Source of the DNA: Clostridia bacterium
GTDB taxonomy: Bacteria > Bacillota > Clostridia > Oscillospirales > CAG-272
Reading direction: 5' to 3'
DNA: 39,240 nucleotides
NCBI GenBank assembly: GCA_017467085.1
Contig: JAFTSW010000083.1
Coordinates: 1 to 39,240, forward strand
Shown here: positions 1-39,240 of the stretch, one piece after another
How positions within the stretch are numbered: position 1 is the stretch's first letter
Layout of the letters: every line of letters starts with the position of its first letter
The notes under the pieces: generated by a model
What the model was told of the DNA's origin: nothing
The model's database searches: none
Seen by the model: only the letters and a program-made list of their open reading frames with translations
Program-made: the position numbers and the translations under genes

Positions 1-2
1 TT

Positions 3-68
3 CTTAATGGCGAGCGCATTGAAACGGACGGCACCTTCCGCCGCGCCCCTCTTGGAAAAAACGAATAA
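3..68 (+). CDS. C-terminal end of an unidentified protein, cut by the window edge
   Basis: An open frame enters from the window edge and reads 21 residues ending in ...RAPLGKNE before a TAA at 66-68. It is followed almost at once by terminator-like hairpins, as expected at a gene end. The tail is polar and arginine-rich. Too little is present to name a family, and it could also be a chance open frame. Confidence 0.4.
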   Translation, partial: LNGERIETDGTFRRAPLGKNE

Positions 69-79
69 AAAGAAAAAAG

Positions 80-258
80 GGGCTGTCTCACTATTTCGTG
101 AGACACCAAAAAGGAGCCGAAAACGGCTCCTTTTTTGCCCCTGTTCGTTTCACTTTTGAAAAAAAGCGAAACGAACGCACAAATTTTCTTCGAAAATTTC
201 CTCATTTTGCGCCTTTCTTGACGCAAAATGAGACGGGCTGCCTCAAATGAGACAGCCC
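80..258. mobile_element. MITE-like block bounded by 11-bp inverted repeats and tiled with hairpins
   Basis: GGGCTGTCTCA (80-90) is repeated inverted as TGAGACAGCCC (248-258). Between and including these ends, six hairpins follow one another almost without gaps: 84-105 (8-bp stem), 108-135 (12 bp, AAAA loop, oligo-T after it), 143-176 (9 bp, one mismatch, 5 bp), 181-199 (8 bp), 201-232 (11 bp) and 233-260 (8 bp, one mismatch, 3 bp). There is no coding capacity. Terminal inverted repeats, short length and absence of a transposase fit a miniature inverted-repeat element. No clear target-site duplication is visible, so a cluster of terminators is the alternative reading. Confidence 0.45.
108..136. 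terminator. Bidirectional intrinsic terminator hairpin
   Basis: AAGGAGCCG (111-119), loop AAAA, CGGCTCCTT (124-132), extended by three A-T pairs and followed by T in one direction and by a run of A (T on the other strand) in the opposite direction. It could end both the truncated plus-strand gene at 3-68 and the minus-strand gene at 271-1266. Confidence 0.7.
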
Positions 259-270
259 GTTTTTGAAGGC

Positions 271-1266
271 TTACCAATTTTGACGGTCGCTTCCGTCATG
301 ATAGCTGCGTCCGCTACCGTCATTGTAGGTGCGTCCGCTTCCGTCGTCATAGCCGCTATTATTGCCGCCACCGCCGTTGCCGTTCTTGCGCTGACGTATG
401 GCACGAACCAGAAGCACGATGGCCACGATGACCGCCACGGCAAGCGCTACGGTAATGACGATGCTACCGATGGGCATGGTTTTGCCAAAGACGTTTTCCG
501 CGGTATCCACCACGATAACGGCAGGAATATCGGTTCTTTCGGTGAAGCGCTCCAGCGCCATATTCACCGTTTGCTCGTTGATAACGATATTGGAATAGTT
601 GGTTACGTGGGAGGGGATGCTCTTGTCGCTTTCAAAGCCCTCGATAAAGGAGGAGGAAAGCCCCTCGCTTACCACGCTATCTCCCATTTTGTTCATCACG
701 GAGGCAAGGTTAGAGCTGAGAGAGTTGGCATAGTAATTGGCAACGGAGCCCGTAACCGCCAAGCCGAACTCGGTATATTCATTGCCGAACTTATCCTTGA
801 TACCGTCCTTTACATAGTCGCCTATCCAGGCGATGCAATAATAGCTGTCCGCCTCCTCGTTGGTCAAAAAGACGATAAGAAGGTTGGTTTCGTAGGAGTC
901 GCTCTCTCCAAATTCCGCCACGTACTGCTCCGAGGCATATTCCTGAAAGGCTCTTTCGCTATATTTCACCCGACCGCCGTTGGCAACATCCGACACCACA
1001 GAGCCGAGGGACGCGGCAAAGCTGATAGCCACGATAATCAACATCACAATGGGGAAAAACAGCAAGCCCAAAAGCCCGTTTAAGCACCCCACTCTACCGT
1101 AGTAATAGGGTCTTCCGTACATACGGGGTCCAAAGCCGAAATGGGGTCGGAAGCCGCCTCCCATTCCAAAGCCGCCGCGATGACCGCCGCCACCGAAGCC
1201 GCCGCCTCCTCCGAATCCGCCGCCGCCAAAGCCGCCGCCGCGTCCTCCTCCACCGGGTCCTGGCAT
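271..1266 (-). CDS. Glycine-rich two-helix membrane protein with extracytoplasmic domain, function unknown
   Basis: A 331-residue protein that I do not recognise as a named family. Residues 4-38 are almost only Gly with Phe and a few Arg (GGGF-type repeats). A hydrophobic helix at about 62-88 and a second at about 266-288 enclose a polar domain (about 89-265) that would face outside, because the second helix is followed by the basic stretch RAIRQRK. The C-terminal tail (about 300-330) carries three degenerate copies of a Y-x-DGSGR unit. The central domain, with an early FQEYA segment and a LIVFLTNEE strand, recalls TPM-type domains only loosely. The ATG follows a GTGAGGA ribosome site. It lies 49 bp downstream of the D-lactate dehydrogenase gene on the same strand, so co-transcription is possible. 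Homology is unproven. Confidence 0.8.
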   Translation of the reverse strand: MPGPGGGGRGGGFGGGGFGGGGGFGGGGHRGGFGMGGGFRPHFGFGPRMYGRPYYYGRVGCLNGLLGLLFFPIVMLIIVAISFAASLGSVVSDVANGGRVKYSERAFQEYASEQYVAEFGESDSYETNLLIVFLTNEEADSYYCIAWIGDYVKDGIKDKFGNEYTEFGLAVTGSVANYYANSLSSNLASVMNKMGDSVVSEGLSSSFIEGFESDKSIPSHVTNYSNIVINEQTVNMALERFTERTDIPAVIVVDTAENVFGKTMPIGSIVITVALAVAVIVAIVLLVRAIRQRKNGNGGGGNNSGYDDGSGRTYNDGSGRSYHDGSDRQNW

Positions 1267-1315
1267 AACAAAGTCCTCACTTTCTTGATTTATTGCTTAT
1301 AAGGTAAACAGTTCT

Positions 1316-2353
1316 TTACGAAAAGCATTTTCCGCTTTTACAGTCCTTGGCCTCGCCACCGCGGTAGCAAAGCTCGTTGGGGCATTCCCCTGTTTCGGCA
1401 AGGGTGACGATGTTTTTCACCGTGGTTTCCGCAATATTCTCCAACGCCTCCTCGGTGAGGAATGCCTGGTGAGAGGTAACCAAGACGTTGGGCATCGTGA
1501 TAAGACGCGCCAAGGTATCGTCCTCCATAATGTGTCCCGAATTGTCCTCGAAGAAGAGGTCTGCCTCCTCCTCGTAGACGTCAAGGCAGGCGGCGCCCAC
1601 CTGGCGGGACTTGATGCCCGATAGCAGCGCCTCGGAATCCACCAGCGCCCCACGGGAGGTATTAATAATAACAACGCCCTTCTTCATACGGGAAATAGAA
1701 TCGGCGTTAACGAGGTAGTGGGTTTCCTCGGTGAGGGGACAGTGGAGAGAAATCACGTCACTTTCCGCAAAGAGAGCGTCCAGCGTCACGTATTCCACCC
1801 CTGCCCGTTTTACCAGCTCCGCATCGGGGTATTTATCGTATGCCAGCACCCGCATACCGAAGCCAAGGCAGATACCGGCAAAGACCTTGCCGATTTTGCC
1901 CGTTCCGACGATGCCAACCGTTTTACCGTGCAAATCAAAGCCTGTCAGCCCCGACAGGCTGAAATTAAATTCCTTGGAGCGAATATACGCCTTATGAATA
2001 CGGCGCACGGAGGTTAAAAGCAGCGCCATAGCGTGCTCGGCAACGGCGTAGGGCGAATAGGCAGGCACACGCAAAACGTGCAGACGCCCAAAGGCGTGCT
2101 TCATATCCACGTTGTTGAAGCCCGCGCAGCGAAGCGCCAGAATCCCCACGCCCAGCTCCTGCAATCTGTCGATGACGGCGGCATCCACACGGTCATTGAC
2201 GAAGGCACAAACGCCGTCATACCCTGCGGCAAGCTCCACGGTATCCGCCGTCAGCTTGGTTTCAAAAAACTTGAAGGTGACGCCGTACTCCTTTCCGTAT
2301 TTTTCAAAATAGGGCTTATCGTACGGCTTTGTATCAAAAAAAGCGATTTTCAT
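1316..2353 (-). CDS. ldhA: D-lactate dehydrogenase (D-isomer-specific 2-hydroxyacid dehydrogenase family)
   Basis: Cytoplasmic NADH-dependent enzyme expected to reduce pyruvate to D-lactate and so recycle NAD+ during fermentation. The 345 residues match the usual length of about 330-345. The N-terminus MKIAFFDTKPYD is typical of LdhA-type members. The Rossmann motif VGTGKIG is at 149-155. The catalytic residues of the family fit R234 (TSRG), E263 and H295 (SHQAF). The C-terminus has an unusual cysteine-rich extension (C324, C329, C338, C343). The start ATG has an AAGGAA site 11 bp upstream, a slightly long spacing, and sits after a structured leader of about 125 nt. Other 2-hydroxyacid substrates cannot be excluded, but the LdhA-like start favours lactate. 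Confidence 0.88.
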   Translation of the reverse strand: MKIAFFDTKPYDKPYFEKYGKEYGVTFKFFETKLTADTVELAAGYDGVCAFVNDRVDAAVIDRLQELGVGILALRCAGFNNVDMKHAFGRLHVLRVPAYSPYAVAEHAMALLLTSVRRIHKAYIRSKEFNFSLSGLTGFDLHGKTVGIVGTGKIGKVFAGICLGFGMRVLAYDKYPDAELVKRAGVEYVTLDALFAESDVISLHCPLTEETHYLVNADSISRMKKGVVIINTSRGALVDSEALLSGIKSRQVGAACLDVYEEEADLFFEDNSGHIMEDDTLARLITMPNVLVTSHQAFLTEEALENIAETTVKNIVTLAETGECPNELCYRGGEAKDCKSGKCFS

Positions 2354-2382
2354 ATAGTTGGCTGTTCCTTTCTTGCCAGGCG

Positions 2383-2419
2383 CCCTTGCGACGGCTTGCT
2401 ATGCTTTTCGGCGCAAGGG
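2383..2419 (-). other. Stem-loop in the leader of the D-lactate dehydrogenase gene
   Basis: On the minus strand the 5' leader contains CCCTTGCG (2412-2419) and CGCAAGGG (2383-2390), a perfect 8-bp stem around a 21-nt loop. It lies about 30 bp before the start codon and just upstream of the ribosome site. There is no oligo-T, so it is not a terminator. A role in translation control or mRNA stability is possible but unproven. Confidence 0.4.
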
Positions 2420-2485
2420 GTATTGATTGAATTTATCTTTTCTGCTTTTGCGGCGCAGTATTCCCGATAGCGTGCTTCTAACAGT

Positions 2486-2514
2486 ATTATACACTATTTT
2501 TCCCTATGAAGCAA
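2486..2514 (-). promoter_or_regulatory. Vegetative (sigma-A type) promoter of the D-lactate dehydrogenase gene
   Basis: Read on the minus strand: TTGCTT (-35), 17-bp spacer, TATAAT (-10). It leaves a leader of about 125 nt before the start codon. It is divergent from the rpmG promoter about 70 bp away, with an A/T-rich stretch between them. Confidence 0.75.
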
Positions 2515-2583
2515 GTAAAAAAACAAAAAAATGAAAGAAGATAATAATAAAGAAGAAAAGACGAAAAAAATATGCAAATTCTC

Positions 2584-2612
2584 TTGACAAAAGAAGAAAA
2601 GTATGGTATGAT
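2584..2612 (+). promoter_or_regulatory. Strong vegetative promoter of the rpmG-secE-nusG-rplK-rplA operon
   Basis: TTGACA (2584-2589), 17-bp spacer, TATGAT (2607-2612). The predicted transcription start is near 2619, about 125 nt upstream of rpmG. No other plus-strand promoter of similar quality was seen before rplA, so the five genes are probably one transcription unit. Confidence 0.85.
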
Positions 2613-2618
2613 AGGTAT

Positions 2619-2644
2619 ACCTCTGTCGGAGAGGTCTTTTTTTT
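2619..2644 (+). terminator. Terminator-like hairpin at the very 5' end of the rpmG operon transcript
   Basis: ACCTCT (2619-2624), loop GTCGG, AGAGGT (2630-2635), then C and eight T (2637-2644). The stem begins at about the predicted transcription start, so the first 26 nt of the message would form a complete intrinsic terminator shape. No gene on this strand lies upstream that it could serve. It may attenuate, may produce a very short RNA, or may only protect the 5' end. Confidence 0.6.
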
Positions 2645-2646
2645 GT

Positions 2647-2712
2647 GCGCTTTTTCTGGGACATAGCGCCAAAGAAGCCCCGATATGAGGGAGGTACTCG
2701 GCTACAAGCCGA
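2647..2712 (+). other. Structured part of the rpmG leader
   Basis: Two small stem-loops lie between the leader terminator and rpmG: GCGCT (2647-2651) with AGCGC (2665-2669), and TCGGCT (2698-2703), loop ACA, AGCCGA (2707-2712). GGAGGT at 2690-2695 could also pair with the transcript 5' end (2619-2624), competing with the first hairpin. I do not recognise a known riboswitch or ribosomal-protein leader here. Confidence 0.35.
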
Positions 2713-2743
2713 AATAATATTAAGAAAGAAAGAGGTGCCGCAC

Positions 2744-2893
2744 ATGAGAGTCAAAATTACCCTTGCCTGCACGGAATGTAAGCAAAGAAATTATGACACG
2801 ATGAAAAACAAAAAGAATGACCCGGACAGAATCGAGCTGAACAAGTTCTGCCGCTTCTGCCGCAAACACACCCTGCACAAAGAAACGAAATAA
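2744..2893 (+). CDS. rpmG: 50S ribosomal protein L33, zinc-binding form
   Basis: A 49-residue basic protein of the large ribosomal subunit. The four cysteines C9, C12, C36 and C39 form two CxxC pairs, which marks the zinc-containing (C+) form. The ATG at 2744 is preceded by AGAGGTG at a normal distance. An upstream in-frame ATG at 2645 would add 33 residues unlike the family and would start inside the leader, so it was not used. It opens the operon and lies 17 bp before secE, the common Firmicutes order rpmG-secE-nusG. Confidence 0.95.
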
Positions 2894-2910
2894 GGAACAG
2901 GGAGGAAAAA

Positions 2911-3210
2911 ATGGCTGATTTGAACGAAAAGCTGCCTGAGGAAGCTGCTTCCTCCGCCGCTGAAAAGAAAACCAAAGAAGAAAAGAAGCCTAACTTTTTC
3001 GCTCGTACTTGGGGAAAAATCAAGAAGTTTTTCCGTGATTACGTCAGCGAGATGAAGAAGGTTGTCTGGCTGTCCCGCAAGGAGACTGTCAGAAGCTCTG
3101 TCGTCGTTGTCGTGATGGTCGTCATTCTCAGCATTGCGATTGCCTTGGTTGACACCGGCTTGGAATACGGTGTTATCGGTCTTCGCAACCTTGGATATTT
3201 TCTAAGATAA
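2911..3210 (+). CDS. secE: Preprotein translocase subunit SecE
   Basis: Small membrane subunit that clamps and stabilises SecY in the SecYEG export channel. Of 99 residues, 1-45 are charged and lysine-rich. The conserved amphipathic segment SEMKKVVWLSRKET covers 46-59, and a single membrane helix runs from about 62 to 82. This single-helix form is usual outside Enterobacteria. The start follows GGGAGG by 5 bp. NusG begins 12 bp after the stop, and the secE-nusG pairing is conserved across bacteria, which supports the call. Confidence 0.95.
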   Translation: MADLNEKLPEEAASSAAEKKTKEEKKPNFFARTWGKIKKFFRDYVSEMKKVVWLSRKETVRSSVVVVVMVVILSIAIALVDTGLEYGVIGLRNLGYFLR

Positions 3211-3222
3211 GGACAGAGGACG

Positions 3223-3768
3223 ATGAGCGATTTTGACGAAATGAACCTTGGTCCCAGATGGTATGTTGTTCACACTTACTCCGGCTATGAAAACAAAGTA
3301 AAGCTCAGCATTGAGAAGATTGTGGAAAACCGCGGACTTGGACATCTGATTTACGATGTGCAAATCCCGATTGAAAAATCTCTCGTTTCCAATGAAAAGG
3401 GGCAGGTCAAGGAAGTGGAAACCAAGATTTTCCCTACCTACGTGCTTGTAAAAATGACGATGACAGACGAAAGCTGGCACGTTGTTCGTAACATCACGGG
3501 TGTGACCGGCTTCGTAGGCCCCGGCTCCAAGCCCGTGCCGCTGACTGAGGAAGAGGTTGAGTTCTTCCGCGTGGAATCCAAGCGCGAGGAGGAATTTGCT
3601 TTGAAGGTCGGCAAGAAGGTCAAGCTCGTTTCCGGCGCTTTCGCAGGTTACGAGGGCGTTCTTCAAGAAATCTCCGAGGACAAGAAGCAGGTTACTGTTC
3701 TTGTTTCTACGGGTAGACGCGACATCCCCGTTATCGTAGACGCAAAGGATGTTTGCGCCAACGAATGA
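3223..3768 (+). CDS. nusG: Transcription termination/antitermination factor NusG
   Basis: Binds RNA polymerase during elongation and affects pausing and coupling to translation. Its 181 residues are the normal length. The NGN domain spans about 10-118 and starts with the typical RWYVVHTYSGYENKV segment. The KOW domain lies near 131-175 with the GAFAGYEG turn. No domain insertion is seen. It sits between secE (12-bp gap) and the rplK leader. Confidence 0.96.
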   Translation: MSDFDEMNLGPRWYVVHTYSGYENKVKLSIEKIVENRGLGHLIYDVQIPIEKSLVSNEKGQVKEVETKIFPTYVLVKMTMTDESWHVVRNITGVTGFVGPGSKPVPLTEEEVEFFRVESKREEEFALKVGKKVKLVSGAFAGYEGVLQEISEDKKQVTVLVSTGRRDIPVIVDAKDVCANE

Positions 3769-3788
3769 TAGCATTCGCATTTTGCCTA

Positions 3789-3850
3789 TGCCCGTAAGGG
3801 CAACCGTGGGAGGAAGAAAAAATCTTTAATTCTTCCGAATAATCACCACA
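3789..3850 (+). promoter_or_regulatory. Probable L1-binding autoregulatory leader of rplK-rplA
   Basis: In the 99-bp nusG-rplK gap, GTGG (3806-3809) pairs with CCAC (3846-3849) and GGAAGAA (3812-3818) with TTCTTCC (3830-3836), leaving an asymmetric internal loop next to GTGGGAGG. This layout resembles the L1-binding leader described upstream of rplK in other bacteria, by which L1 represses its own operon. The rplK ribosome site GGAGGT (3854-3859) follows directly. A second hairpin, TGCCC-GTAA-GGGCA (3789-3802), precedes it. Confidence 0.6.
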
Positions 3851-3867
3851 TCAGGAGGTACAGAAAA

Positions 3868-4293
3868 ATGGCAAAGAAAATTTCCGGATATATTAAGCTT
3901 CAGTTGCCTGCCGGTAAGGCTACTCCCCAGCCCCCCGTAGGTCCCGCACTTGGTCAGTACGGTGTTTCTATCCCGAACTTCACCAAGGAATTTAACGAAA
4001 GAACCAAGAATGACGCAGGTCTTATTATCCCTGTTGTTATTACGGTATACGCTGACCGTTCTTTCACCTTTATCACCAAGACTCCTCCCGCAGCCGTTCT
4101 CATTAAGAAGGCTTGCGGCATCGAGACTGCTTCTCCCGCTCCTAACAAGACCAAGGTTGCCGTTCTGACCAAGGAACAGCTGACCAAGATTGCAGAGACC
4201 AAAATGAAAGACCTGAACGCCGCTTCCCTGGAAGCCGCTATGAGCATGGTTGCGGGCACCGCACGCAGCATGGGCGTTACGGTGGAAGAGTGA
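3868..4293 (+). CDS. rplK: 50S ribosomal protein L11
   Basis: Component of the GTPase-associated centre of the large subunit, where it binds 23S rRNA and contacts elongation factors; in many bacteria it is needed for RelA activation. Its 141 residues are the standard length. The proline-rich N-terminal loop with P22-P23 ([12 protein letters not shown]) is the thiostrepton-site region. The C-terminal RNA-binding domain ends in AGTARSMGV. It is translated from a strong GGAGGT site within the leader described above. Confidence 0.97.
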
Positions 4294-4308
4294 TAGGAGG
4301 AACGAAAG

Positions 4309-5001
4309 ATGTTGAACGGAAAGAAATACGTTGAAAGCGCAAAATTGATTGATAAATCCAAGCTCTACGAGTCCGTTGAGGCTATGGAGCTGGTTTGCCA
4401 GACCGCAAAGGCTAAGTTTGACGAGACCGTTGAGGCTCACATCCGCTTGGGTGTTGACTCCCGTCACGCTGACCAGCAGGTTCGCGGCGCCATCGTTCTT
4501 CCTCACGGTACCGGTAAGACCGTGAGAACCCTCGTATTCGCTCGTGGCGACAAGGCAAAGGCTGCCGAAGAGGCAGGTGCCGACTACGTTGGTGCTGAGG
4601 AATACGTTACCAAGATTCAGTCCGAGAACTGGTTTGAATTCGACGTTGTTATCGCAACCCCCGACATGATGGGCGTTATCGGCCGTCTGGGTAAGGTTCT
4701 GGGTCCTAAGGGCTTGATGCCTAACCCCAAGGCCGGCACCGTTACGATGGACGTTGCAAAGGCTGTTACCGAGGCTAAGGCAGGTAAGATTGAGTACCGT
4801 CTGGACAAGACCAACATCATTCACTGCCCTGTTGGTAAGGCTTCCTTCGGCGCTGAAAAGCTTGCTGAAAACTTTAACACCCTGATGTCTGCCATTATCA
4901 AGGCGAAGCCCGCTTCCGCTAAGGGTCAGTACATCAAGAGCTGCGTTGTGGCTTCCACGATGGGCCCCGGTGTCAAGGTTAACGCTGCTAAGATTAACTA
5001 A
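4309..5001 (+). CDS. rplA: 50S ribosomal protein L1
   Basis: Large-subunit protein of the mobile L1 stalk, and in many bacteria the translational repressor of its own operon. Its 230 residues match the family. The signature region [20 protein letters not shown] lies at about 125-144. The gene begins 15 bp after rplK with an AGGAGGA site. In many Firmicutes rplJ and rplL follow. Here two terminators follow instead, so the L10/L7-L12 genes must lie elsewhere. Confidence 0.97.
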
Positions 5002-5010
5002 TAGCAACCA

Positions 5011-5046
5011 AAAAGGCAAACGCTGTGCGTTTGCCTTTTTTCTTTT
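5011..5046 (+). terminator. Intrinsic terminator of the rpmG-rplA operon
   Basis: AAAAGGCAAACGC (5011-5023), loop TGT, GCGTTTGCCTTTT (5027-5039), then T-rich sequence to 5046. It begins 9 bp after the rplA stop. Confidence 0.9.
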
Positions 5047-5050
5047 TTAT

Positions 5051-5086
5051 ACAAAAACGCAAATGCCGTGGCATTTGCGTTTTTGT
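5051..5086. terminator. Bidirectional terminator between rplA and the small RHH gene
   Basis: A perfect 16-bp stem, ACAAAAACGCAAATGC (5051-5066) and GCATTTGCGTTTTTGT (5071-5086), with loop CGTG. T runs on both strands let it serve the minus-strand gene that ends at 5088 and back up the rplA terminator. Confidence 0.85.
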
Positions 5087-5087
5087 A

Positions 5088-5282
5088 CTATCCGTTTTCC
5101 TCTTCACTTTTGGGAAGAACAATTTCTCCTTCTTGCTTCTCAAAAGCTTTAATTTCTTGCCGTATCAGATACAGGATTTCTCCATTGGCGGAACGACCGT
5201 AATATTTGGAGATATAATGCAGCTTGTAATGAAGCGAAGGGTCAATCTCAATTCCAAGATGCTTGTTTTTCTTATTTCTCAT
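5088..5282 (-). CDS. Small Arc-like ribbon-helix-helix DNA-binding protein
   Basis: A 64-residue protein with the layout of Arc/MetJ-type repressors: a short beta strand (about HLGIEID, 8-14), helix A (about 16-28) and the turn plus helix B GRSANGEILYLI (29-40), very close in pattern to the GRSxNxEI segment of phage Arc. Such proteins bind DNA as dimers through the paired strands. The ATG at 5282 follows GGAG by 6 bp. An in-frame TTG four codons earlier overlaps that site and was not chosen. No toxin partner is adjacent, so it may be a lone, possibly self-regulating repressor. Its target is unknown. Confidence 0.75.
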   Translation of the reverse strand: MRNKKNKHLGIEIDPSLHYKLHYISKYYGRSANGEILYLIRQEIKAFEKQEGEIVLPKSEEENG

Positions 5283-5302
5283 ATATTTCTCCAAAAAATC
5301 TT

Positions 5303-5340
5303 ATTATAATATCAATCTCATATTGCTAAGGGATTGATAT
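5303..5340 (-). promoter_or_regulatory. Promoter with overlapping inverted repeat upstream of the RHH gene
   Basis: On the minus strand ATATCAATC and GATTGATAT form a perfect 9-bp inverted repeat 14 bp apart (outer limits 5309-5340). TATAAT (5303-5308) follows at once as a -10 box. The -35 region lies inside the repeat and is poor. A repeat covering the promoter is where a self-repressing RHH protein would bind. Confidence 0.5.
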
Positions 5341-5344
5341 GGAT

Positions 5345-5370
5345 GCGGCGAGTCCTTAAGGACGCGCCGC
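5345..5370. other. Hairpin after the aconitase gene, without T run
   Basis: GCGGCG (5345-5350), one mismatch, GTCC, loop TTAA, GGAC, one mismatch, CGCCGC (5365-5370). It lies 7 bp beyond the aconitase stop. A strong G/C stem without oligo-U suggests an mRNA 3' stabilising structure or an inefficient terminator. Confidence 0.5.
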
Positions 5371-5377
5371 TAAACGG

Positions 5378-7306
5378 TCAGTTCTTCGAGCCTGTGTAGG
5401 CGAGAAGGCCGCCTGCCTTGAGCATATCCTTCTGGCGCTCGGTGAAGGCGCAGACCAAGGGAATTTGTTTGCCGTTGGTTTCATCGGTCAACAGCATTTT
5501 GCCATCCTCCATACCTTGGTACACACCCGAAAGGGAGAGGCGGTCGCCCTGGTTGAGGGCATCGTAATCCTCGGGATTCTCAAAGGTGAGGGGCATAATG
5601 CCTGCGTTGATGAGGTTTGCCACGTGGATACGGGCAAAGCTCTTGGCGATAACCACACGGACGCCTAAGTACAAGGGAACGAGAGCCGCGTGCTCACGGG
5701 AGGAGCCCTGGCCGTAGTTTACGCCGCCTACCACGAAGCACTCTCCTGCCGCCTTGGCTCTTTCGGGGAAGGTGGGGTCACAAACGCCGAAGCAATACTG
5801 GGACAGATGGGGGATATTGGAGCGATAGGGGAGAATTTTGGCGCCTGCGGGCATAATGTGGTCGGTGGTGATATTGTCGCCAACCTTCAACACCAGCTCG
5901 GCGGTGAGGCTATCGGTCTGGGGACGGCTATCGGGGAATTTCTTGATGTTGGGTCCGCGCAGTACCTCCACCGCATCTGCCTTATCGGCAGGAGCAGGAG
6001 CAAGGACGGCGCTATCGTCGATGCGGAATTTCTCGGGTAGGGTCACCGCGGGCGCCTCGCCAAGCAGACGGGGGTCGGTGATTTCTGCCGTTAAAGCGGC
6101 GGCAACTGCCGTTTCGGGGGAAACAAGGTAGACGCCCGCGTCCTTGGTGCCGCTTCTGCCCTCAAAGTTGCGGTTGAAGGTACGGAGGCTCACGCCGGCG
6201 GAATTGGGGGAGAAGCCCATACCGATACAGGGACCGCACGCGCACTCCAGAACTCTTGCGCCTGCTGCCAGCATATCGGTCAAGGCGCCGCACTCGGCAA
6301 GCATAGAAAGCACCTGCTTGCTTCCGGGGGAGATGGAGAGGCTGACGTCGGGATGAATGGTTTTGCCCTTCAAGAGCGCCGCAACCTTGAGCATATCCAA
6401 CAGCGAAGAGTTGGTGCAGGAGCCGATGCACACCTGATGCACCTTGGTGCCACGGAGGCTTTCCACCGTTACCACGTTGTCGGGCATATGGGGGCAAGCA
6501 ATCAAGGGCTTCAGCTCGGAGAGGTTGATATCAATCACTCTATCGTAGACGGCATCGGGGTCGGAGGCGAGGGGGGTATAGTCCTCTTCTCTGCCCTCTG
6601 CCTTTAAGAAGGCACGGGTAATCTCATCGGAGGGGAAAATAGAGGTGGTGGCACCAAGCTCGGTGCCCATATTGGTGATGGTGGCACGCTCGGGAACGGA
6701 GAGGCTGGCAATGCCCTCGCCACCCCATTCGATGATAGCGCCAACGCCGCCCTTCACCGAAAGGATACGCAGAATTTCAAGGCTGACGTCCTTGGCGGTA
6801 ACAAAGGGATTGAGCTTGCCCGTCAGATTGACCTTAATCATACGGGGCATAGTGATGTAGTAGGCGCCGCCGCCCATTGCCACGGCAACGTCAAGACCGC
6901 CCGCGCCAAACGCCAGCATACCGATACCGCCGCCTGTGGGGGTGTGGCTATCGGAGCCGATAAGGGTCTTTCCCGGGATACCGAAGCGCTCCAGATGCAC
7001 CTGGTGACAGATGCCGTTGCCGGGACGGGAGAACCAAATGCCGTATTTGGAGGCAATAGACTGGATAAATCTGTGGTCATCGGCGTTTTCAAAGCCGCTT
7101 TGCAGGGTATTGTGGTCGATATACGCCACGCTCTTCTCCGTTCTGACACGGGGAATACCCATTGTTTCAAATTCCAGGTATGCCATTGTACCCGTGGCGT
7201 CCTGGGTTAAGGTCTGGTCGATACGGAGGGCGATTTCCTCGCCTACCTCCATCTTGCCCGAAACAAGATGGGATTTGATAATTTTTTGCGCAAGAGTCAG
7301 TCCCAT
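5378..7306 (-). CDS. acnA: Aconitate hydratase, Aquifex-type
   Basis: [4Fe-4S] enzyme converting citrate to isocitrate through cis-aconitate. The 642 residues fit the short Aquifex-type aconitases found in Clostridia rather than the ~890-residue AcnA. The cluster ligands are C297 (in CIGSCTNSS), C357 and C360 (CACGPC). The substrate-site histidine region SDSHTPTGG is at 118-126. DNITTDHIMPAG (477-488) and the swivelling-domain motif GQGSSREH (532-539) are intact. It is the third gene of a minus-strand operon, 20 bp after the GntR gene, with a GAAGGA ribosome site. Homoaconitase or isopropylmalate isomerase are alternatives, but those are usually two separate subunits. The Re-citrate synthase-like partner favours aconitase. 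Confidence 0.92.
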   Translation of the reverse strand: MGLTLAQKIIKSHLVSGKMEVGEEIALRIDQTLTQDATGTMAYLEFETMGIPRVRTEKSVAYIDHNTLQSGFENADDHRFIQSIASKYGIWFSRPGNGICHQVHLERFGIPGKTLIGSDSHTPTGGGIGMLAFGAGGLDVAVAMGGGAYYITMPRMIKVNLTGKLNPFVTAKDVSLEILRILSVKGGVGAIIEWGGEGIASLSVPERATITNMGTELGATTSIFPSDEITRAFLKAEGREEDYTPLASDPDAVYDRVIDINLSELKPLIACPHMPDNVVTVESLRGTKVHQVCIGSCTNSSLLDMLKVAALLKGKTIHPDVSLSISPGSKQVLSMLAECGALTDMLAAGARVLECACGPCIGMGFSPNSAGVSLRTFNRNFEGRSGTKDAGVYLVSPETAVAAALTAEITDPRLLGEAPAVTLPEKFRIDDSAVLAPAPADKADAVEVLRGPNIKKFPDSRPQTDSLTAELVLKVGDNITTDHIMPAGAKILPYRSNIPHLSQYCFGVCDPTFPERAKAAGECFVVGGVNYGQGSSREHAALVPLYLGVRVVIAKSFARIHVANLINAGIMPLTFENPEDYDALNQGDRLSLSGVYQGMEDGKMLLTDETNGKQIPLVCAFTERQKDMLKAGGLLAYTGSKN

Positions 7307-7326
7307 TTTCTTTTCCTTCTTTATAT

Positions 7327-7959: not shown

Positions 7960-7974
7960 TGTGTTTACCCTCCT

Positions 7975-9354: not shown

Positions 9355-9395
9355 ATTTTCTCCTTTGCATACTTGTTTTCGGGTATTCCTGTATT

Positions 9396-9434
9396 ATTGT
9401 ATACAATTATACAACAATACGTGACAAATTGCAA
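9396..9434 (-). promoter_or_regulatory. Promoter of the citrate operon with a GntR-type operator
   Basis: On the minus strand: TTGCAA (-35, 9429-9434), 17-bp spacer, TATAAT (-10, 9406-9411). The perfect palindrome ATTGTATACAAT (9396-9407) overlaps the end of the -10 box and the start site. TTGT-AT-ACAA fits the TNGT...ACNA form of FCD-type GntR operators, so the regulator encoded in the operon probably represses here. No second good match was seen in the intergenic regions. Confidence 0.75.
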
Positions 9435-29845: not shown

Positions 29846-29886
29846 AATACAGGAATACCCGAAAACAAGTATGCAAAGGAGAAAAT

Positions 29887-31266: not shown

Positions 31267-31281
31267 AGGAGGGTAAACACA

Positions 31282-31914: not shown

Positions 31915-31934
31915 ATATAAAGAAGGAAAAGAAA

Positions 31935-33863
31935 ATGGGACTGACTCTTGCGCAAAAAATTATCAAATCCCATCTTGTTTCGGGCAAGATGGAGGTAGGC
32001 GAGGAAATCGCCCTCCGTATCGACCAGACCTTAACCCAGGACGCCACGGGTACAATGGCATACCTGGAATTTGAAACAATGGGTATTCCCCGTGTCAGAA
32101 CGGAGAAGAGCGTGGCGTATATCGACCACAATACCCTGCAAAGCGGCTTTGAAAACGCCGATGACCACAGATTTATCCAGTCTATTGCCTCCAAATACGG
32201 CATTTGGTTCTCCCGTCCCGGCAACGGCATCTGTCACCAGGTGCATCTGGAGCGCTTCGGTATCCCGGGAAAGACCCTTATCGGCTCCGATAGCCACACC
32301 CCCACAGGCGGCGGTATCGGTATGCTGGCGTTTGGCGCGGGCGGTCTTGACGTTGCCGTGGCAATGGGCGGCGGCGCCTACTACATCACTATGCCCCGTA
32401 TGATTAAGGTCAATCTGACGGGCAAGCTCAATCCCTTTGTTACCGCCAAGGACGTCAGCCTTGAAATTCTGCGTATCCTTTCGGTGAAGGGCGGCGTTGG
32501 CGCTATCATCGAATGGGGTGGCGAGGGCATTGCCAGCCTCTCCGTTCCCGAGCGTGCCACCATCACCAATATGGGCACCGAGCTTGGTGCCACCACCTCT
32601 ATTTTCCCCTCCGATGAGATTACCCGTGCCTTCTTAAAGGCAGAGGGCAGAGAAGAGGACTATACCCCCCTCGCCTCCGACCCCGATGCCGTCTACGATA
32701 GAGTGATTGATATCAACCTCTCCGAGCTGAAGCCCTTGATTGCTTGCCCCCATATGCCCGACAACGTGGTAACGGTGGAAAGCCTCCGTGGCACCAAGGT
32801 GCATCAGGTGTGCATCGGCTCCTGCACCAACTCTTCGCTGTTGGATATGCTCAAGGTTGCGGCGCTCTTGAAGGGCAAAACCATTCATCCCGACGTCAGC
32901 CTCTCCATCTCCCCCGGAAGCAAGCAGGTGCTTTCTATGCTTGCCGAGTGCGGCGCCTTGACCGATATGCTGGCAGCAGGCGCAAGAGTTCTGGAGTGCG
33001 CGTGCGGTCCCTGTATCGGTATGGGCTTCTCCCCCAATTCCGCCGGCGTGAGCCTCCGTACCTTCAACCGCAACTTTGAGGGCAGAAGCGGCACCAAGGA
33101 CGCGGGCGTCTACCTTGTTTCCCCCGAAACGGCAGTTGCCGCCGCTTTAACGGCAGAAATCACCGACCCCCGTCTGCTTGGCGAGGCGCCCGCGGTGACC
33201 CTACCCGAGAAATTCCGCATCGACGATAGCGCCGTCCTTGCTCCTGCTCCTGCCGATAAGGCAGATGCGGTGGAGGTACTGCGCGGACCCAACATCAAGA
33301 AATTCCCCGATAGCCGTCCCCAGACCGATAGCCTCACCGCCGAGCTGGTGTTGAAGGTTGGCGACAATATCACCACCGACCACATTATGCCCGCAGGCGC
33401 CAAAATTCTCCCCTATCGCTCCAATATCCCCCATCTGTCCCAGTATTGCTTCGGCGTTTGTGACCCCACCTTCCCCGAAAGAGCCAAGGCGGCAGGAGAG
33501 TGCTTCGTGGTAGGCGGCGTAAACTACGGCCAGGGCTCCTCCCGTGAGCACGCGGCTCTCGTTCCCTTGTACTTAGGCGTCCGTGTGGTTATCGCCAAGA
33601 GCTTTGCCCGTATCCACGTGGCAAACCTCATCAACGCAGGCATTATGCCCCTCACCTTTGAGAATCCCGAGGATTACGATGCCCTCAACCAGGGCGACCG
33701 CCTCTCCCTTTCGGGTGTGTACCAAGGTATGGAGGATGGCAAAATGCTGTTGACCGATGAAACCAACGGCAAACAAATTCCCTTGGTCTGCGCCTTCACC
33801 GAGCGCCAGAAGGATATGCTCAAGGCAGGCGGCCTTCTCGCCTACACAGGCTCGAAGAACTGA
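31935..33863 (+). CDS. acnA: Aconitate hydratase, Aquifex-type, second copy
   Basis: Identical twin of 5378-7306: cluster cysteines C297, C357 and C360, 642 residues; third gene of the operon. Confidence 0.92.
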   Translation: MGLTLAQKIIKSHLVSGKMEVGEEIALRIDQTLTQDATGTMAYLEFETMGIPRVRTEKSVAYIDHNTLQSGFENADDHRFIQSIASKYGIWFSRPGNGICHQVHLERFGIPGKTLIGSDSHTPTGGGIGMLAFGAGGLDVAVAMGGGAYYITMPRMIKVNLTGKLNPFVTAKDVSLEILRILSVKGGVGAIIEWGGEGIASLSVPERATITNMGTELGATTSIFPSDEITRAFLKAEGREEDYTPLASDPDAVYDRVIDINLSELKPLIACPHMPDNVVTVESLRGTKVHQVCIGSCTNSSLLDMLKVAALLKGKTIHPDVSLSISPGSKQVLSMLAECGALTDMLAAGARVLECACGPCIGMGFSPNSAGVSLRTFNRNFEGRSGTKDAGVYLVSPETAVAAALTAEITDPRLLGEAPAVTLPEKFRIDDSAVLAPAPADKADAVEVLRGPNIKKFPDSRPQTDSLTAELVLKVGDNITTDHIMPAGAKILPYRSNIPHLSQYCFGVCDPTFPERAKAAGECFVVGGVNYGQGSSREHAALVPLYLGVRVVIAKSFARIHVANLINAGIMPLTFENPEDYDALNQGDRLSLSGVYQGMEDGKMLLTDETNGKQIPLVCAFTERQKDMLKAGGLLAYTGSKN

Positions 33864-33870
33864 CCGTTTA

Positions 33871-33896
33871 GCGGCGCGTCCTTAAGGACTCGCCGC
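33871..33896. other. Post-aconitase hairpin, second copy
   Basis: Twin of 5345-5370, G/C-rich stem without a T run. Confidence 0.5.
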
Positions 33897-33900
33897 ATCC

Positions 33901-33938
33901 ATATCAATCCCTTAGCAATATGAGATTGATATTATAAT
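33901..33938 (+). promoter_or_regulatory. RHH gene promoter with inverted repeat, second copy
   Basis: ATATCAATC (33901-33909), GATTGATAT (33924-33932) and TATAAT (33933-33938). Twin of 5303-5340. Confidence 0.5.
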
Positions 33939-33958
33939 AAGATTTTTTGGAGAAATAT

Positions 33959-34153
33959 ATGAGAAATAAGAAAAACAAGCATCTTGGAATTGAGATTGAC
34001 CCTTCGCTTCATTACAAGCTGCATTATATCTCCAAATATTACGGTCGTTCCGCCAATGGAGAAATCCTGTATCTGATACGGCAAGAAATTAAAGCTTTTG
34101 AGAAGCAAGAAGGAGAAATTGTTCTTCCCAAAAGTGAAGAGGAAAACGGATAG
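33959..34153 (+). CDS. Arc-like ribbon-helix-helix protein, second copy
   Basis: Identical twin of 5088-5282: 64 residues with the GRSANGEI turn; ATG chosen over the upstream TTG that overlaps the ribosome site. Confidence 0.75.
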   Translation: MRNKKNKHLGIEIDPSLHYKLHYISKYYGRSANGEILYLIRQEIKAFEKQEGEIVLPKSEEENG

Positions 34154-34154
34154 T

Positions 34155-34190
34155 ACAAAAACGCAAATGCCACGGCATTTGCGTTTTTGT
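34155..34190. terminator. Bidirectional terminator, second copy
   Basis: Twin of 5051-5086, a perfect 16-bp stem. Confidence 0.85.
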
Positions 34191-34194
34191 ATAA

Positions 34195-34230
34195 AAAAGA
34201 AAAAAGGCAAACGCACAGCGTTTGCCTTTT
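34195..34230 (-). terminator. rpmG-rplA operon terminator, second copy
   Basis: Twin of 5011-5046. Confidence 0.9.
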
Positions 34231-34239
34231 TGGTTGCTA

Positions 34240-34932
34240 TTAGTTAATCTTAGCAGCGTTAACCTTGACACCGGGGCCCATCGTGGAAGCCACAACGCAG
34301 CTCTTGATGTACTGACCCTTAGCGGAAGCGGGCTTCGCCTTGATAATGGCAGACATCAGGGTGTTAAAGTTTTCAGCAAGCTTTTCAGCGCCGAAGGAAG
34401 CCTTACCAACAGGGCAGTGAATGATGTTGGTCTTGTCCAGACGGTACTCAATCTTACCTGCCTTAGCCTCGGTAACAGCCTTTGCAACGTCCATCGTAAC
34501 GGTGCCGGCCTTGGGGTTAGGCATCAAGCCCTTAGGACCCAGAACCTTACCCAGACGGCCGATAACGCCCATCATGTCGGGGGTTGCGATAACAACGTCG
34601 AATTCAAACCAGTTCTCGGACTGAATCTTGGTAACGTATTCCTCAGCACCAACGTAGTCGGCACCTGCCTCTTCGGCAGCCTTTGCCTTGTCGCCACGAG
34701 CGAATACGAGGGTTCTCACGGTCTTACCGGTACCGTGAGGAAGAACGATGGCGCCGCGAACCTGCTGGTCAGCGTGACGGGAGTCAACACCCAAGCGGAT
34801 GTGAGCCTCAACGGTCTCGTCAAACTTAGCCTTTGCGGTCTGGCAAACCAGCTCCATAGCCTCAACGGACTCGTAGAGCTTGGATTTATCAATCAATTTT
34901 GCGCTTTCAACGTATTTCTTTCCGTTCAACAT
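34240..34932 (-). CDS. rplA: 50S ribosomal protein L1, second copy
   Basis: Identical twin of 4309-5001, 230 residues. Confidence 0.97.
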
Positions 34933-34947
34933 CTTTCGTTCCTCCTA

Positions 34948-35373
34948 TCACTCTTCCACCGTAACGCCCATGCTGCGTGCGGTGCCCGCAACCATGCTCA
35001 TAGCGGCTTCCAGGGAAGCGGCGTTCAGGTCTTTCATTTTGGTCTCTGCAATCTTGGTCAGCTGTTCCTTGGTCAGAACGGCAACCTTGGTCTTGTTAGG
35101 AGCGGGAGAAGCAGTCTCGATGCCGCAAGCCTTCTTAATGAGAACGGCTGCGGGAGGAGTCTTGGTGATAAAGGTGAAAGAACGGTCAGCGTATACCGTA
35201 ATAACAACAGGGATAATAAGACCTGCGTCATTCTTGGTTCTTTCGTTAAATTCCTTGGTGAAGTTCGGGATAGAAACACCGTACTGACCAAGTGCGGGAC
35301 CTACGGGGGGCTGGGGAGTAGCCTTACCGGCAGGCAACTGAAGCTTAATATATCCGGAAATTTTCTTTGCCAT
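34948..35373 (-). CDS. rplK: 50S ribosomal protein L11, second copy
   Basis: Identical twin of 3868-4293, 141 residues. Confidence 0.97.
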
Positions 35374-35390
35374 TTTTCTGTACCTCCTGA

Positions 35391-35452
35391 TGTGGTGATT
35401 ATTCGGAAGAATTAAAGATTTTTTCTTCCTCCCACGGTTGCCCTTACGGGCA
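35391..35452 (-). promoter_or_regulatory. Probable L1-binding leader, second copy
   Basis: Twin of 3789-3850. Confidence 0.6.
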
Positions 35453-35472
35453 TAGGCAAAATGCGAATGCTA

Positions 35473-36018
35473 TCATTCGTTGGCGCAAACATCCTTTGCG
35501 TCTACGATAACGGGGATGTCGCGTCTACCCGTAGAAACAAGAACAGTAACCTGCTTCTTGTCCTCGGAGATTTCTTGAAGAACGCCCTCGTAACCTGCGA
35601 AAGCGCCGGAAACGAGCTTGACCTTCTTGCCGACCTTCAAAGCAAATTCCTCCTCGCGCTTGGATTCCACGCGGAAGAACTCAACCTCTTCCTCAGTCAG
35701 CGGCACGGGCTTGGAGCCGGGGCCTACGAAGCCGGTCACACCCGTGATGTTACGAACAACGTGCCAGCTTTCGTCTGTCATCGTCATTTTTACAAGCACG
35801 TAGGTAGGGAAAATCTTGGTTTCCACTTCCTTGACCTGCCCCTTTTCATTGGAAACGAGAGATTTTTCAATCGGGATTTGCACATCGTAAATCAGATGTC
35901 CAAGTCCGCGGTTTTCCACAATCTTCTCAATGCTGAGCTTTACTTTGTTTTCATAGCCGGAGTAAGTGTGAACAACATACCATCTGGGACCAAGGTTCAT
36001 TTCGTCAAAATCGCTCAT
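35473..36018 (-). CDS. nusG: NusG, second copy
   Basis: Identical twin of 3223-3768: NGN and KOW domains, 181 residues. Confidence 0.96.
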   Translation of the reverse strand: MSDFDEMNLGPRWYVVHTYSGYENKVKLSIEKIVENRGLGHLIYDVQIPIEKSLVSNEKGQVKEVETKIFPTYVLVKMTMTDESWHVVRNITGVTGFVGPGSKPVPLTEEEVEFFRVESKREEEFALKVGKKVKLVSGAFAGYEGVLQEISEDKKQVTVLVSTGRRDIPVIVDAKDVCANE

Positions 36019-36030
36019 CGTCCTCTGTCC

Positions 36031-36330
36031 TTATCTTAGAAAATATCCAAGGTTGCGAAGACCGATAACACCGTATTCCAAGCCGGTGTCAACCAAGGCA
36101 ATCGCAATGCTGAGAATGACGACCATCACGACAACGACGACAGAGCTTCTGACAGTCTCCTTGCGGGACAGCCAGACAACCTTCTTCATCTCGCTGACGT
36201 AATCACGGAAAAACTTCTTGATTTTTCCCCAAGTACGAGCGAAAAAGTTAGGCTTCTTTTCTTCTTTGGTTTTCTTTTCAGCGGCGGAGGAAGCAGCTTC
36301 CTCAGGCAGCTTTTCGTTCAAATCAGCCAT
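36031..36330 (-). CDS. secE: SecE, second copy
   Basis: Identical twin of 2911-3210: one membrane helix, 99 residues. Confidence 0.95.
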   Translation of the reverse strand: MADLNEKLPEEAASSAAEKKTKEEKKPNFFARTWGKIKKFFRDYVSEMKKVVWLSRKETVRSSVVVVVMVVILSIAIALVDTGLEYGVIGLRNLGYFLR

Positions 36331-36347
36331 TTTTTCCTCCCTGTTCC

Positions 36348-36497
36348 TTATTTCGTTTCTTTGTGCAGGGTGTGTTTGCGGCAGAAGCGGCAGAACTTGT
36401 TCAGCTCGATTCTGTCCGGGTCATTCTTTTTGTTTTTCATCGTGTCATAATTTCTTTGCTTACATTCCGTGCAGGCAAGGGTAATTTTGACTCTCAT
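36348..36497 (-). CDS. rpmG: 50S ribosomal protein L33, second copy
   Basis: Identical twin of 2744-2893: four zinc cysteines, 49 residues. Confidence 0.95.
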
Positions 36498-36596
36498 GTG
36501 CGGCACCTCTTTCTTTCTTAATATTATTTCGGCTTGTAGCCGAGTACCTCCCTCATATCGGGGCTTCTTTGGCGCTATGTCCCAGAAAAAGCGCAC

Positions 36597-36622
36597 AAAA
36601 AAAAGACCTCTCCGACAGAGGT
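36597..36622 (-). terminator. Leader terminator-like hairpin of the rpmG operon, second copy
   Basis: Twin of 2619-2644. Confidence 0.6.
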
Positions 36623-36628
36623 ATACCT

Positions 36629-36657
36629 ATCATACCATACTTTTCTTCTTTTGTCAA
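36629..36657 (-). promoter_or_regulatory. rpmG operon promoter, second copy
   Basis: Twin of 2584-2612. Confidence 0.85.
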
Positions 36658-36726
36658 GAGAATTTGCATATTTTTTTCGTCTTTTCTTCTTTATTATTAT
36701 CTTCTTTCATTTTTTTGTTTTTTTAC

Positions 36727-36755
36727 TTGCTTCATAGGGAAAAATAGTGTATAAT
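36727..36755 (+). promoter_or_regulatory. D-lactate dehydrogenase promoter, second copy
   Basis: TTGCTT (36727-36732), 17-bp spacer, TATAAT (36750-36755). Twin of 2486-2514. The leader stem-loop follows at 36822-36858. Confidence 0.75.
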
Positions 36756-36887
36756 ACTGTTAGAAGCACGCTATCGGGAATACTGCGCCGCAAAAGCAGA
36801 AAAGATAAATTCAATCAATACCCCTTGCGCCGAAAAGCATAGCAAGCCGTCGCAAGGGCGCCTGGCAAGAAAGGAACAGCCAACTAT

Positions 36888-37925
36888 ATGAAAATCGCTT
36901 TTTTTGATACAAAGCCGTACGATAAGCCCTATTTTGAAAAATACGGAAAGGAGTACGGCGTCACCTTCAAGTTTTTTGAAACCAAGCTGACGGCGGATAC
37001 CGTGGAGCTTGCCGCAGGGTATGACGGCGTTTGTGCCTTCGTCAATGACCGTGTGGATGCCGCCGTCATCGACAGATTGCAGGAGCTGGGCGTGGGGATT
37101 CTGGCGCTTCGCTGCGCGGGCTTCAACAACGTGGATATGAAGCACGCCTTTGGGCGTCTGCACGTTTTGCGTGTGCCTGCCTATTCGCCCTACGCCGTTG
37201 CCGAGCACGCTATGGCGCTGCTTTTAACCTCCGTGCGCCGTATTCATAAGGCGTATATTCGCTCCAAGGAATTTAATTTCAGCCTGTCGGGGCTGACAGG
37301 CTTTGATTTGCACGGTAAAACGGTTGGCATCGTCGGAACGGGCAAAATCGGCAAGGTCTTTGCCGGTATCTGCCTTGGCTTCGGTATGCGGGTGCTGGCA
37401 TACGATAAATACCCCGATGCGGAGCTGGTAAAACGGGCAGGGGTGGAATACGTGACGCTGGACGCTCTCTTTGCGGAAAGTGACGTGATTTCTCTCCACT
37501 GTCCCCTCACCGAGGAAACCCACTACCTCGTTAACGCCGATTCTATTTCCCGTATGAAGAAGGGCGTTGTTATTATTAATACCTCCCGTGGGGCGCTGGT
37601 GGATTCCGAGGCGCTGCTATCGGGCATCAAGTCCCGCCAGGTGGGCGCCGCCTGCCTTGACGTCTACGAGGAGGAGGCAGACCTCTTCTTCGAGGACAAT
37701 TCGGGACACATTATGGAGGACGATACCTTGGCGCGTCTTATCACGATGCCCAACGTCTTGGTTACCTCTCACCAGGCATTCCTCACCGAGGAGGCGTTGG
37801 AGAATATTGCGGAAACCACGGTGAAAAACATCGTCACCCTTGCCGAAACAGGGGAATGCCCCAACGAGCTTTGCTACCGCGGTGGCGAGGCCAAGGACTG
37901 TAAAAGCGGAAAATGCTTTTCGTAA
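36888..37925 (+). CDS. ldhA: D-lactate dehydrogenase, second copy
   Basis: Identical twin of 1316-2353: R234, E263 and H295 in place, cysteine-rich C-terminal tail, 345 residues. Confidence 0.88.
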   Translation: MKIAFFDTKPYDKPYFEKYGKEYGVTFKFFETKLTADTVELAAGYDGVCAFVNDRVDAAVIDRLQELGVGILALRCAGFNNVDMKHAFGRLHVLRVPAYSPYAVAEHAMALLLTSVRRIHKAYIRSKEFNFSLSGLTGFDLHGKTVGIVGTGKIGKVFAGICLGFGMRVLAYDKYPDAELVKRAGVEYVTLDALFAESDVISLHCPLTEETHYLVNADSISRMKKGVVIINTSRGALVDSEALLSGIKSRQVGAACLDVYEEEADLFFEDNSGHIMEDDTLARLITMPNVLVTSHQAFLTEEALENIAETTVKNIVTLAETGECPNELCYRGGEAKDCKSGKCFS

Positions 37926-37974
37926 AGAACTGTTTACCTTATAAGCAATAAATCAAGAAAGTGAGGACTTTGTT

Positions 37975-38970
37975 ATGCCAGGACCCGGTGGAGGAGGACG
38001 CGGCGGCGGCTTTGGCGGCGGCGGATTCGGAGGAGGCGGCGGCTTCGGTGGCGGCGGTCATCGCGGCGGCTTTGGAATGGGAGGCGGCTTCCGACCCCAT
38101 TTCGGCTTTGGACCCCGTATGTACGGAAGACCCTATTACTACGGTAGAGTGGGGTGCTTAAACGGGCTTTTGGGCTTGCTGTTTTTCCCCATTGTGATGT
38201 TGATTATCGTGGCTATCAGCTTTGCCGCGTCCCTCGGCTCTGTGGTGTCGGATGTTGCCAACGGCGGTCGGGTGAAATATAGCGAAAGAGCCTTTCAGGA
38301 ATATGCCTCGGAGCAGTACGTGGCGGAATTTGGAGAGAGCGACTCCTACGAAACCAACCTTCTTATCGTCTTTTTGACCAACGAGGAGGCGGACAGCTAT
38401 TATTGCATCGCCTGGATAGGCGACTATGTAAAGGACGGTATCAAGGATAAGTTCGGCAATGAATATACCGAGTTCGGCTTGGCGGTTACGGGCTCCGTTG
38501 CCAATTACTATGCCAACTCTCTCAGCTCTAACCTTGCCTCCGTGATGAACAAAATGGGAGATAGCGTGGTAAGCGAGGGGCTTTCCTCCTCCTTTATCGA
38601 GGGCTTTGAAAGCGACAAGAGCATCCCCTCCCACGTAACCAACTATTCCAATATCGTTATCAACGAGCAAACGGTGAATATGGCGCTGGAGCGCTTCACC
38701 GAAAGAACCGATATTCCTGCCGTTATCGTGGTGGATACCGCGGAAAACGTCTTTGGCAAAACCATGCCCATCGGTAGCATCGTCATTACCGTAGCGCTTG
38801 CCGTGGCGGTCATCGTGGCCATCGTGCTTCTGGTTCGTGCCATACGTCAGCGCAAGAACGGCAACGGCGGTGGCGGCAATAATAGCGGCTATGACGACGG
38901 AAGCGGACGCACCTACAATGACGGTAGCGGACGCAGCTATCATGACGGAAGCGACCGTCAAAATTGGTAA
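37975..38970 (+). CDS. Glycine-rich two-helix membrane protein, second copy
   Basis: Identical twin of 271-1266: glycine/phenylalanine-rich N-terminus, two membrane helices, Y-x-DGSGR tail repeats; 331 residues. Confidence 0.8.
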   Translation: MPGPGGGGRGGGFGGGGFGGGGGFGGGGHRGGFGMGGGFRPHFGFGPRMYGRPYYYGRVGCLNGLLGLLFFPIVMLIIVAISFAASLGSVVSDVANGGRVKYSERAFQEYASEQYVAEFGESDSYETNLLIVFLTNEEADSYYCIAWIGDYVKDGIKDKFGNEYTEFGLAVTGSVANYYANSLSSNLASVMNKMGDSVVSEGLSSSFIEGFESDKSIPSHVTNYSNIVINEQTVNMALERFTERTDIPAVIVVDTAENVFGKTMPIGSIVITVALAVAVIVAIVLLVRAIRQRKNGNGGGGNNSGYDDGSGRTYNDGSGRSYHDGSDRQNW

Positions 38971-38982
38971 GCCTTCAAAAAC

Positions 38983-39161
38983 GGGCTGTCTCATTTGAGG
39001 CAGCCCGTCTCATTTTGCGTCAAGAAAGGCGCAAAATGAGGAAATTTTCGAAGAAAATTTGTGCGTTCGTTTCGCTTTTTTTCAAAAGTGAAACGAACAG
39101 GGGCAAAAAAGGAGCCGTTTTCGGCTCCTTTTTGGTGTCTCACGAAATAGTGAGACAGCCC
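38983..39161. mobile_element. MITE-like hairpin block, second copy
   Basis: Twin of 80-258, including the 11-bp terminal inverted repeats and the bidirectional terminator hairpin (39105-39133). Confidence 0.45.
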
Positions 39162-39172
39162 CTTTTTTCTTT

Positions 39173-39238
39173 TTATTCGTTTTTTCCAAGAGGGGCGCGG
39201 CGGAAGGTGCCGTCCGTTTCAATGCGCTCGCCATTAAG
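39173..39238 (-). CDS. C-terminal end of an unidentified protein, second copy
   Basis: Twin of 3-68, 21 residues, cut by the right window edge. Confidence 0.4.
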   Translation of the reverse strand, partial: LNGERIETDGTFRRAPLGKNE

Positions 39239-39240
39239 AA

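Follow-up and report, generated by a model that had tools for sequence, protein, structure and literature searches.

The whole stretch of DNA that was analysed (the window, 39,240 bases) is one complete contig, C58, of a draft genome, and we conclude, with a probability of about 0.88, that it is an assembly artefact in which a de Bruijn graph folded back on itself at a short natural palindrome. That its symmetry is an artefact of some kind is close to certain, and its housekeeping genes, although they appear twice, are almost certainly not duplicated. The host draft genome, G000, comprises 1,937,180 bases in 83 contigs and is 94.41% complete and 2.59% contaminated.

Symmetry and gene content of the contig

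When the window was compared with its reverse complement, all 39,240 positions agreed with 0 mismatches, bearing out the preliminary description of a spacerless perfect palindrome of 2 x 19,620 bp. The axis lies at 19620|19621, has the centre GATGCATC and lacks a spacer; as the window is the whole contig, the symmetry reaches both contig ends. Arm against arm there is not one sequence difference, and both arms terminate at the same base, which is where the contig ends. Coincidence is out of the question as the source of this symmetry. The features discussed below are as follows, where the choice of which arm to call the copy is arbitrary:

1-39240, no strand: entire contig C58, a perfect palindrome of 2 x 19,620 bp (self-comparison)
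19621-39240, forward: arm treated as the real single-copy sequence (symmetry; colinearity with contig C6 of the relative G010 for arm positions 18-6719)
1-19620, reverse: mirror copy of the arm, judged spurious (symmetry, rplA copy number, gene order in G010)
19603-19638, no strand: natural 36-bp perfect palindrome of the ATACCTCGGANNCCGATGCATCGGNNTCCGAGGTAT type at the fold axis (pattern search, one of five genome copies)
19659-20654, forward (mirror 18587-19582, reverse): WYL-domain transcription regulator, first gene past the axis (PF13280/PF25583, on the mirror copy)
16344-18500, reverse (mirror 20741-22897, forward): GH36 alpha-galactosidase, Melibiase (Pfam)
12065-12820, reverse: tpiA, housekeeping, mirrored (Pfam)
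12838-14142, reverse: pgk, housekeeping, mirrored (Pfam)
14404-15144, forward: rsmG, housekeeping, mirrored (Pfam)
2645-5001, forward: cluster of L33, secE, nusG, rplK and rplA, mirrored (Pfam)
1-265, no strand (mirror 38976-39240): outer arm end, with an interspersed repeat (about 74-265) and some 72 bases beyond it (nucleotide search, end comparison)

The genes of the arm are ordinary chromosomal genes. Seventeen of the 18 proteins scanned from one arm matched a Pfam family, comprising a D-2-hydroxyacid dehydrogenase, L33, SecE, NusG, L11 (rplK), L1 (rplA), an aconitase-family protein, a GntR/FCD regulator, an HMGL-like enzyme, a SipL/SPOCS protein, an M23 peptidase, triosephosphate isomerase (tpiA), phosphoglycerate kinase (pgk), RsmG (GidB), a Phos_pyr_kin family kinase, the GH36 alpha-galactosidase and the WYL regulator. 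It had been claimed that nusG, secE, rplK, rplA, pgk, tpiA and rsmG are present twice, and Pfam indeed finds each of them once per arm. A tRNA scan of the window and an Rfam scan of positions 1-19800 at the gathering threshold both returned 0 matches.

The interspersed repeat at the outer end is about 190 bp long. Its ends are inverted and of the GGGCTGTCTCA type, it contains internal hairpins, and we take it to resemble a MITE-type element; in a longer variant, of about 220 bp, there is one more hairpin. It occurs in at least 29 other places in G000, each match spanning at least 115 bases, as judged from a 3-kb query whose 44 matches (with 40 of 116 candidates scored) comprised the two arms, 29 matches to the repeat and 13 shorter pieces. 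The 72 or so bases outside the repeat also occur at the end of contig C4. The contig breaks at its outer end as contigs ordinarily do at repeats, and the break appears twice because the arm is mirrored.

In relatives, rplA and the WYL gene were found in single copy. Both matches to rplA in G000 lie on C58, and exactly one match was found in each of 18 of the 24 other genomes (none in the remaining 6), so that the single copy in relatives that the preliminary description had proposed looking for was found for rplA, the one gene followed across these genomes. Likewise, the WYL gene has two matches in G000, both on C58, and one in G010.

A natural palindrome at the axis

The axis coincides with an element of the pattern TACCTCGG-n-CCGATGCATCGG-n-CCGAGGTA, of which a pattern search found five copies in G000, the other four being at C20:17324-17359, C21:2485-2520, C25:37289-37324 and C29:1042-1077. 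The copies on C21, C25 and C29 are perfect palindromes for exactly 36 bases, after which the flanks are unrelated, and the copy on C20 has two mismatched pairs; the variable positions of the family change on both sides of the element, which keeps four of the five copies perfect. Since copies with unrelated flanks occur elsewhere, positions 19603-19638 hold a natural 36-bp palindrome, which the preliminary description had not mentioned, and its presence there explains why C58 folds at precisely 19620|19621 and without a spacer. The four copies away from the axis are not folded in the assembly.

The element is absent from the 29 other, related genomes that were searched with up to three mismatches allowed, and a looser pattern returned the same five copies together with one match in G003 that has a different core. 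There is no third copy of the axis region in the genome by a 160-bp query, which matched the two arms and otherwise gave E values of 0.27 or worse; it was this query that led to the near-palindrome on C20. At the axis, the element lies directly 5' of a ribosome-binding-site-like AAAGGAG and the WYL start codon. The C21 and C29 copies fall outside all open frames of at least 100 residues in their stretches; mechanically called open frames cross the C20 and C25 copies, and we judged these frames spurious. The family may serve as a regulatory site or as a repeat that forms hairpins. With RNA parameters, a 120-base stretch around the axis has a folding energy of -113 kcal/mol, a figure that is inflated by the mirrored flanks.

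Further natural spacerless palindromes of 44, 40, 32 and 26 bases were present in the stretches read, the two longest being perfect ones at C44:38201-38244 (44 bp) and C26:6215-6254 (40 bp). The former is perhaps a terminator, because it lies between convergent matches to an ABC-F protein and to U1.

Gene order in a relative and the likely true neighbour

A search with the WYL protein gave matches in 20 of 40 genomes, its own included, with G010, of the same genus, as the closest useful relative (68%); against genome contigs, the relatives had identities of 38-56% among the best 80 of 90 matches. Contig C6 of G010 carries the order ABC-F (so labelled from our reading of the protein sequence), U1 on the reverse strand, WYL regulator, alpha-galactosidase, kinase, rsmG and pgk, and then ends. 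Its positions 29053-35469, the latter being the contig end, are colinear in several blocks with arm positions 18-6719, which together with rplA (on C53 of G010) make up the part of the arm that was compared. Its positions 19583-28947 are colinear, again in several blocks, with C44:30051-39593 of G000, so that a single contig of G010 bridges both regions with 105 bases between the two alignments.

The protein matches agree with this placement. U1 has a single match in G000, on C44 (71% over 1-424), and the best G000 match of the ABC-F protein (74% over 1-641) adjoins it, the next of 36 matches being at 32%. C44 continues for 212 bases beyond the U1 match; its terminal part aligns with the G010 sequence that lies upstream of WYL, scoring 128, the maximum over 100 shuffles being 73. 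After the alignable part the contig ends in a low-complexity tail, where repeats have periods of 10 and 14, and stops short of the 36-bp palindrome. No contig was found that continues the C44 end: the query matched itself and gave 12 weak partial hits with E values of 0.003 or worse.

From the order in G010 and the match at the C44 end, the chromosome therefore most likely runs from the axis to C44 and not into the mirror copy, an adjacency that for G000 rests on synteny with one relative of 85% completeness. The real order is most likely C44 (ABC-F, U1, promoter), a short unassembled stretch, the 36-bp palindrome, WYL regulator, alpha-galactosidase, then pgk, rplA and nusG, and the outer repeat.

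Contig ends and the signature of the assembler

Four pairs of contig ends, C58 with C4 among them, have exactly 141 terminal bases in common (28 of the 166 ends were compared). Such shared ends are characteristic of a de Bruijn graph with k = 141. Six further pairs overlap in inverted orientation by 34 to 68 bases; we place these overlaps within the interspersed repeat and read no k signal from them. Both ends of C21 bear the same 141 bases in inverted orientation. Terminal overlaps at the k lengths of the assembler are described in an extended-data legend of CheckV, and MEGAHIT was used with k from 21 to 141 in PMC9927493; other k lists are also in use, such as the MEGAHIT list in PMC12697128 that stops at 87, not 141. 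The final k of 141 fits an assembler of the MEGAHIT kind, which was probably the kind used here.

When 21 stretches, either contig ends or small contigs in full, were scanned for fold-backs, the right end of C26 was the only place with an exact terminal inverted copy. There, C26:15263-15354 and 15581-15672 form an exact 92-base inverted copy across the interspersed repeat, with spacers that differ on each side; it is possibly a second fold-back in the same assembly. The repeat is inverted at both ends of C12, which we take as ordinary, and the remaining results of the scan were short palindromes or imperfect inverted repeats.

Folding of toy de Bruijn graphs

Toy graphs were built from the 36-bp element and 3 kb of actual arm sequence. 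When the sequence started at the element, a palindromic unitig of 2 x 3 kb formed at k = 21, 29 and 35, and there was no fold at k = 37, 39, 59 and 141. Once upstream bases were present, even five, the unitig broke at the branch unless tips were clipped, that is, unless dead ends shorter than 2k were removed. With clipping at k = 21, the graph folded back in 20 of 20 runs at each of the upstream stub lengths 0, 5, 20 and 35, and in 0 of 20 at 50, 100 and 600; at k = 29, it did so in 20 of 20 runs at each of 0, 5, 20, 35 and 50, and in 0 of 20 at 100 and 600. At k = 39, fold-back occurred in 5 of 140 runs, presumably through random bases that extended the palindrome.

In a toy graph of a real palindrome alone, the palindromic contig stayed unbroken at k = 21, 29 and 141; a graph that contained the surviving original junction as well broke at the axis at each of these values. 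The continuity of C58 thus counts only against a duplication that kept its original junction.

Origin of the fold and competing explanations

Several of the marks by which we would recognise a graph fold-back are present in C58: the entire contig is self-reverse-complementary, its axis lies on a natural palindrome able to fold the graph (a criterion of our own), rplA is single in the relatives that match it, and a likely true neighbour is found elsewhere in the assembly, at the C44 end, by synteny with G010. With k no greater than 35, the 36-bp palindrome would lead the arm straight into its own reverse complement. If the true exit towards C44, whose assembled end is the low-complexity tail, was missing or clipped, the sole remaining path would be arm, palindrome and reverse complement of the arm. 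Iterative-k assemblers carry contigs from smaller to larger k, and one of these would have passed the folded contig upwards, here as far as 141. We infer the origin of the fold at small k, its upward carry and the cause of the lost exit; the carry-over is assumed because the 36-bp palindrome alone cannot fold a graph with k = 141. Against this reading, a genuine palindrome would yield an identical unbroken contig at k = 141, the toy fold needs an upstream side that is absent or short enough to clip, and the other four copies of the element did not fold. The preliminary description had put an assembly or library fold-back first, and it gains support from the recurrence of the axis palindrome, the G010 gene order that leads to C44, the 141-base ends and the rplA count.

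A fold-back in the laboratory, where single strands snap back at the 36-bp hairpin during amplification or library making and the resulting inverted chimeric reads are assembled, is unlikely. The axis is a strong hairpin former by the (inflated) folding energy given above, PMC13265396 reports inverted chimeric reads to be common after whole-genome amplification, and C26 likewise ends in an exact inverted self-copy of 92 bases around a repeat. However, a looped hairpin that snaps back would be expected to leave a spacer, the graph mechanism suffices on its own, and the contig ends resemble those of an ordinary graph assembly with k = 141. More improbable still is a real inverted duplication of 19.6 kb that arose very recently through a template switch at the palindrome. 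In yeast deficient in repair, large palindromic duplications can start from short inverted repeats (PMC7999016), and the axis is such a site; the toy of a true palindrome on its own likewise stayed unbroken at k = 141. Against it, the two arms terminate at an identical base, where the contig itself ends, and the 18 other genomes that match rplA carry it once each. Had the original junction to C44 survived, the graph would have broken at the axis as the toy did at k = 21, 29 and 141, so that under a real duplication C44 would need a different partner. The review PMC7999016 also associates longer arms and the lack of a spacer with a greater risk to genome stability. It is correspondingly very doubtful that the population carries a real duplication of 2 x 19.6 kb, seeded by one of the five palindromes and tolerated by the host, with nusG-rplA and pgk-tpiA doubled.

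The least probable origin, to which we give almost no weight, is a covalently closed hairpin telomere of a linear chromosome, with sequencing having passed through the hairpin. Telomeres of this kind do yield a perfect palindrome about the axis, but four further copies of the palindrome lie inside contigs that continue on both sides. A search for the protelomerase family (ResT/TelK, PF16684) gave 0 matches in G000, an absence that is not absolute in a genome of 94.41% completeness and for which the positive control was thin, with one of 14 control genomes, Synechococcus elongatus, giving a match. Given the lack of a PF16684 match and a gene order in G010 that passes through the site, the hairpin telomere was rejected.

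Precedents and significance

Palindromic contigs are already known as likely assembly errors. Passages of two papers describe 81 of them in Mycobacterium bovis, judged a likely assembly error (PMC9455707), and a small number in cyanobacterial single-cell genomes, regarded as very likely artefacts (PMC12755884). As in C58, the second half of these contigs exactly mirrors the first and the genes are doubled; the passages give no cause, whereas for C58 a palindrome at the axis and a likely true neighbour were identified. The palindromic reads described in PMC13265396 resemble C58 in that one sequence is repeated in inverted form with no biological cause, but they are chimeras at the level of reads, whereas C58 bears the signature of a contig from a de Bruijn graph. 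The passages considered from PMC7674155, PMC8346664 and PMC8862349 contain nothing on palindromic contigs, and literature searches by graph and self-complementary terms and for SbcCD found no papers.

The palindrome of C58 is very probably no biological feature, and its importance lies in quality control. In G000, some 19.6 kb are counted twice, and with them at least 17 genes that Pfam supports; the single-copy markers on C58 could inflate estimates of contamination, for which 2.59% is listed. A simple check that can be applied elsewhere is to look for a mirrored contig whose axis lies on a natural palindrome that exceeds the assembler's smallest k in length.
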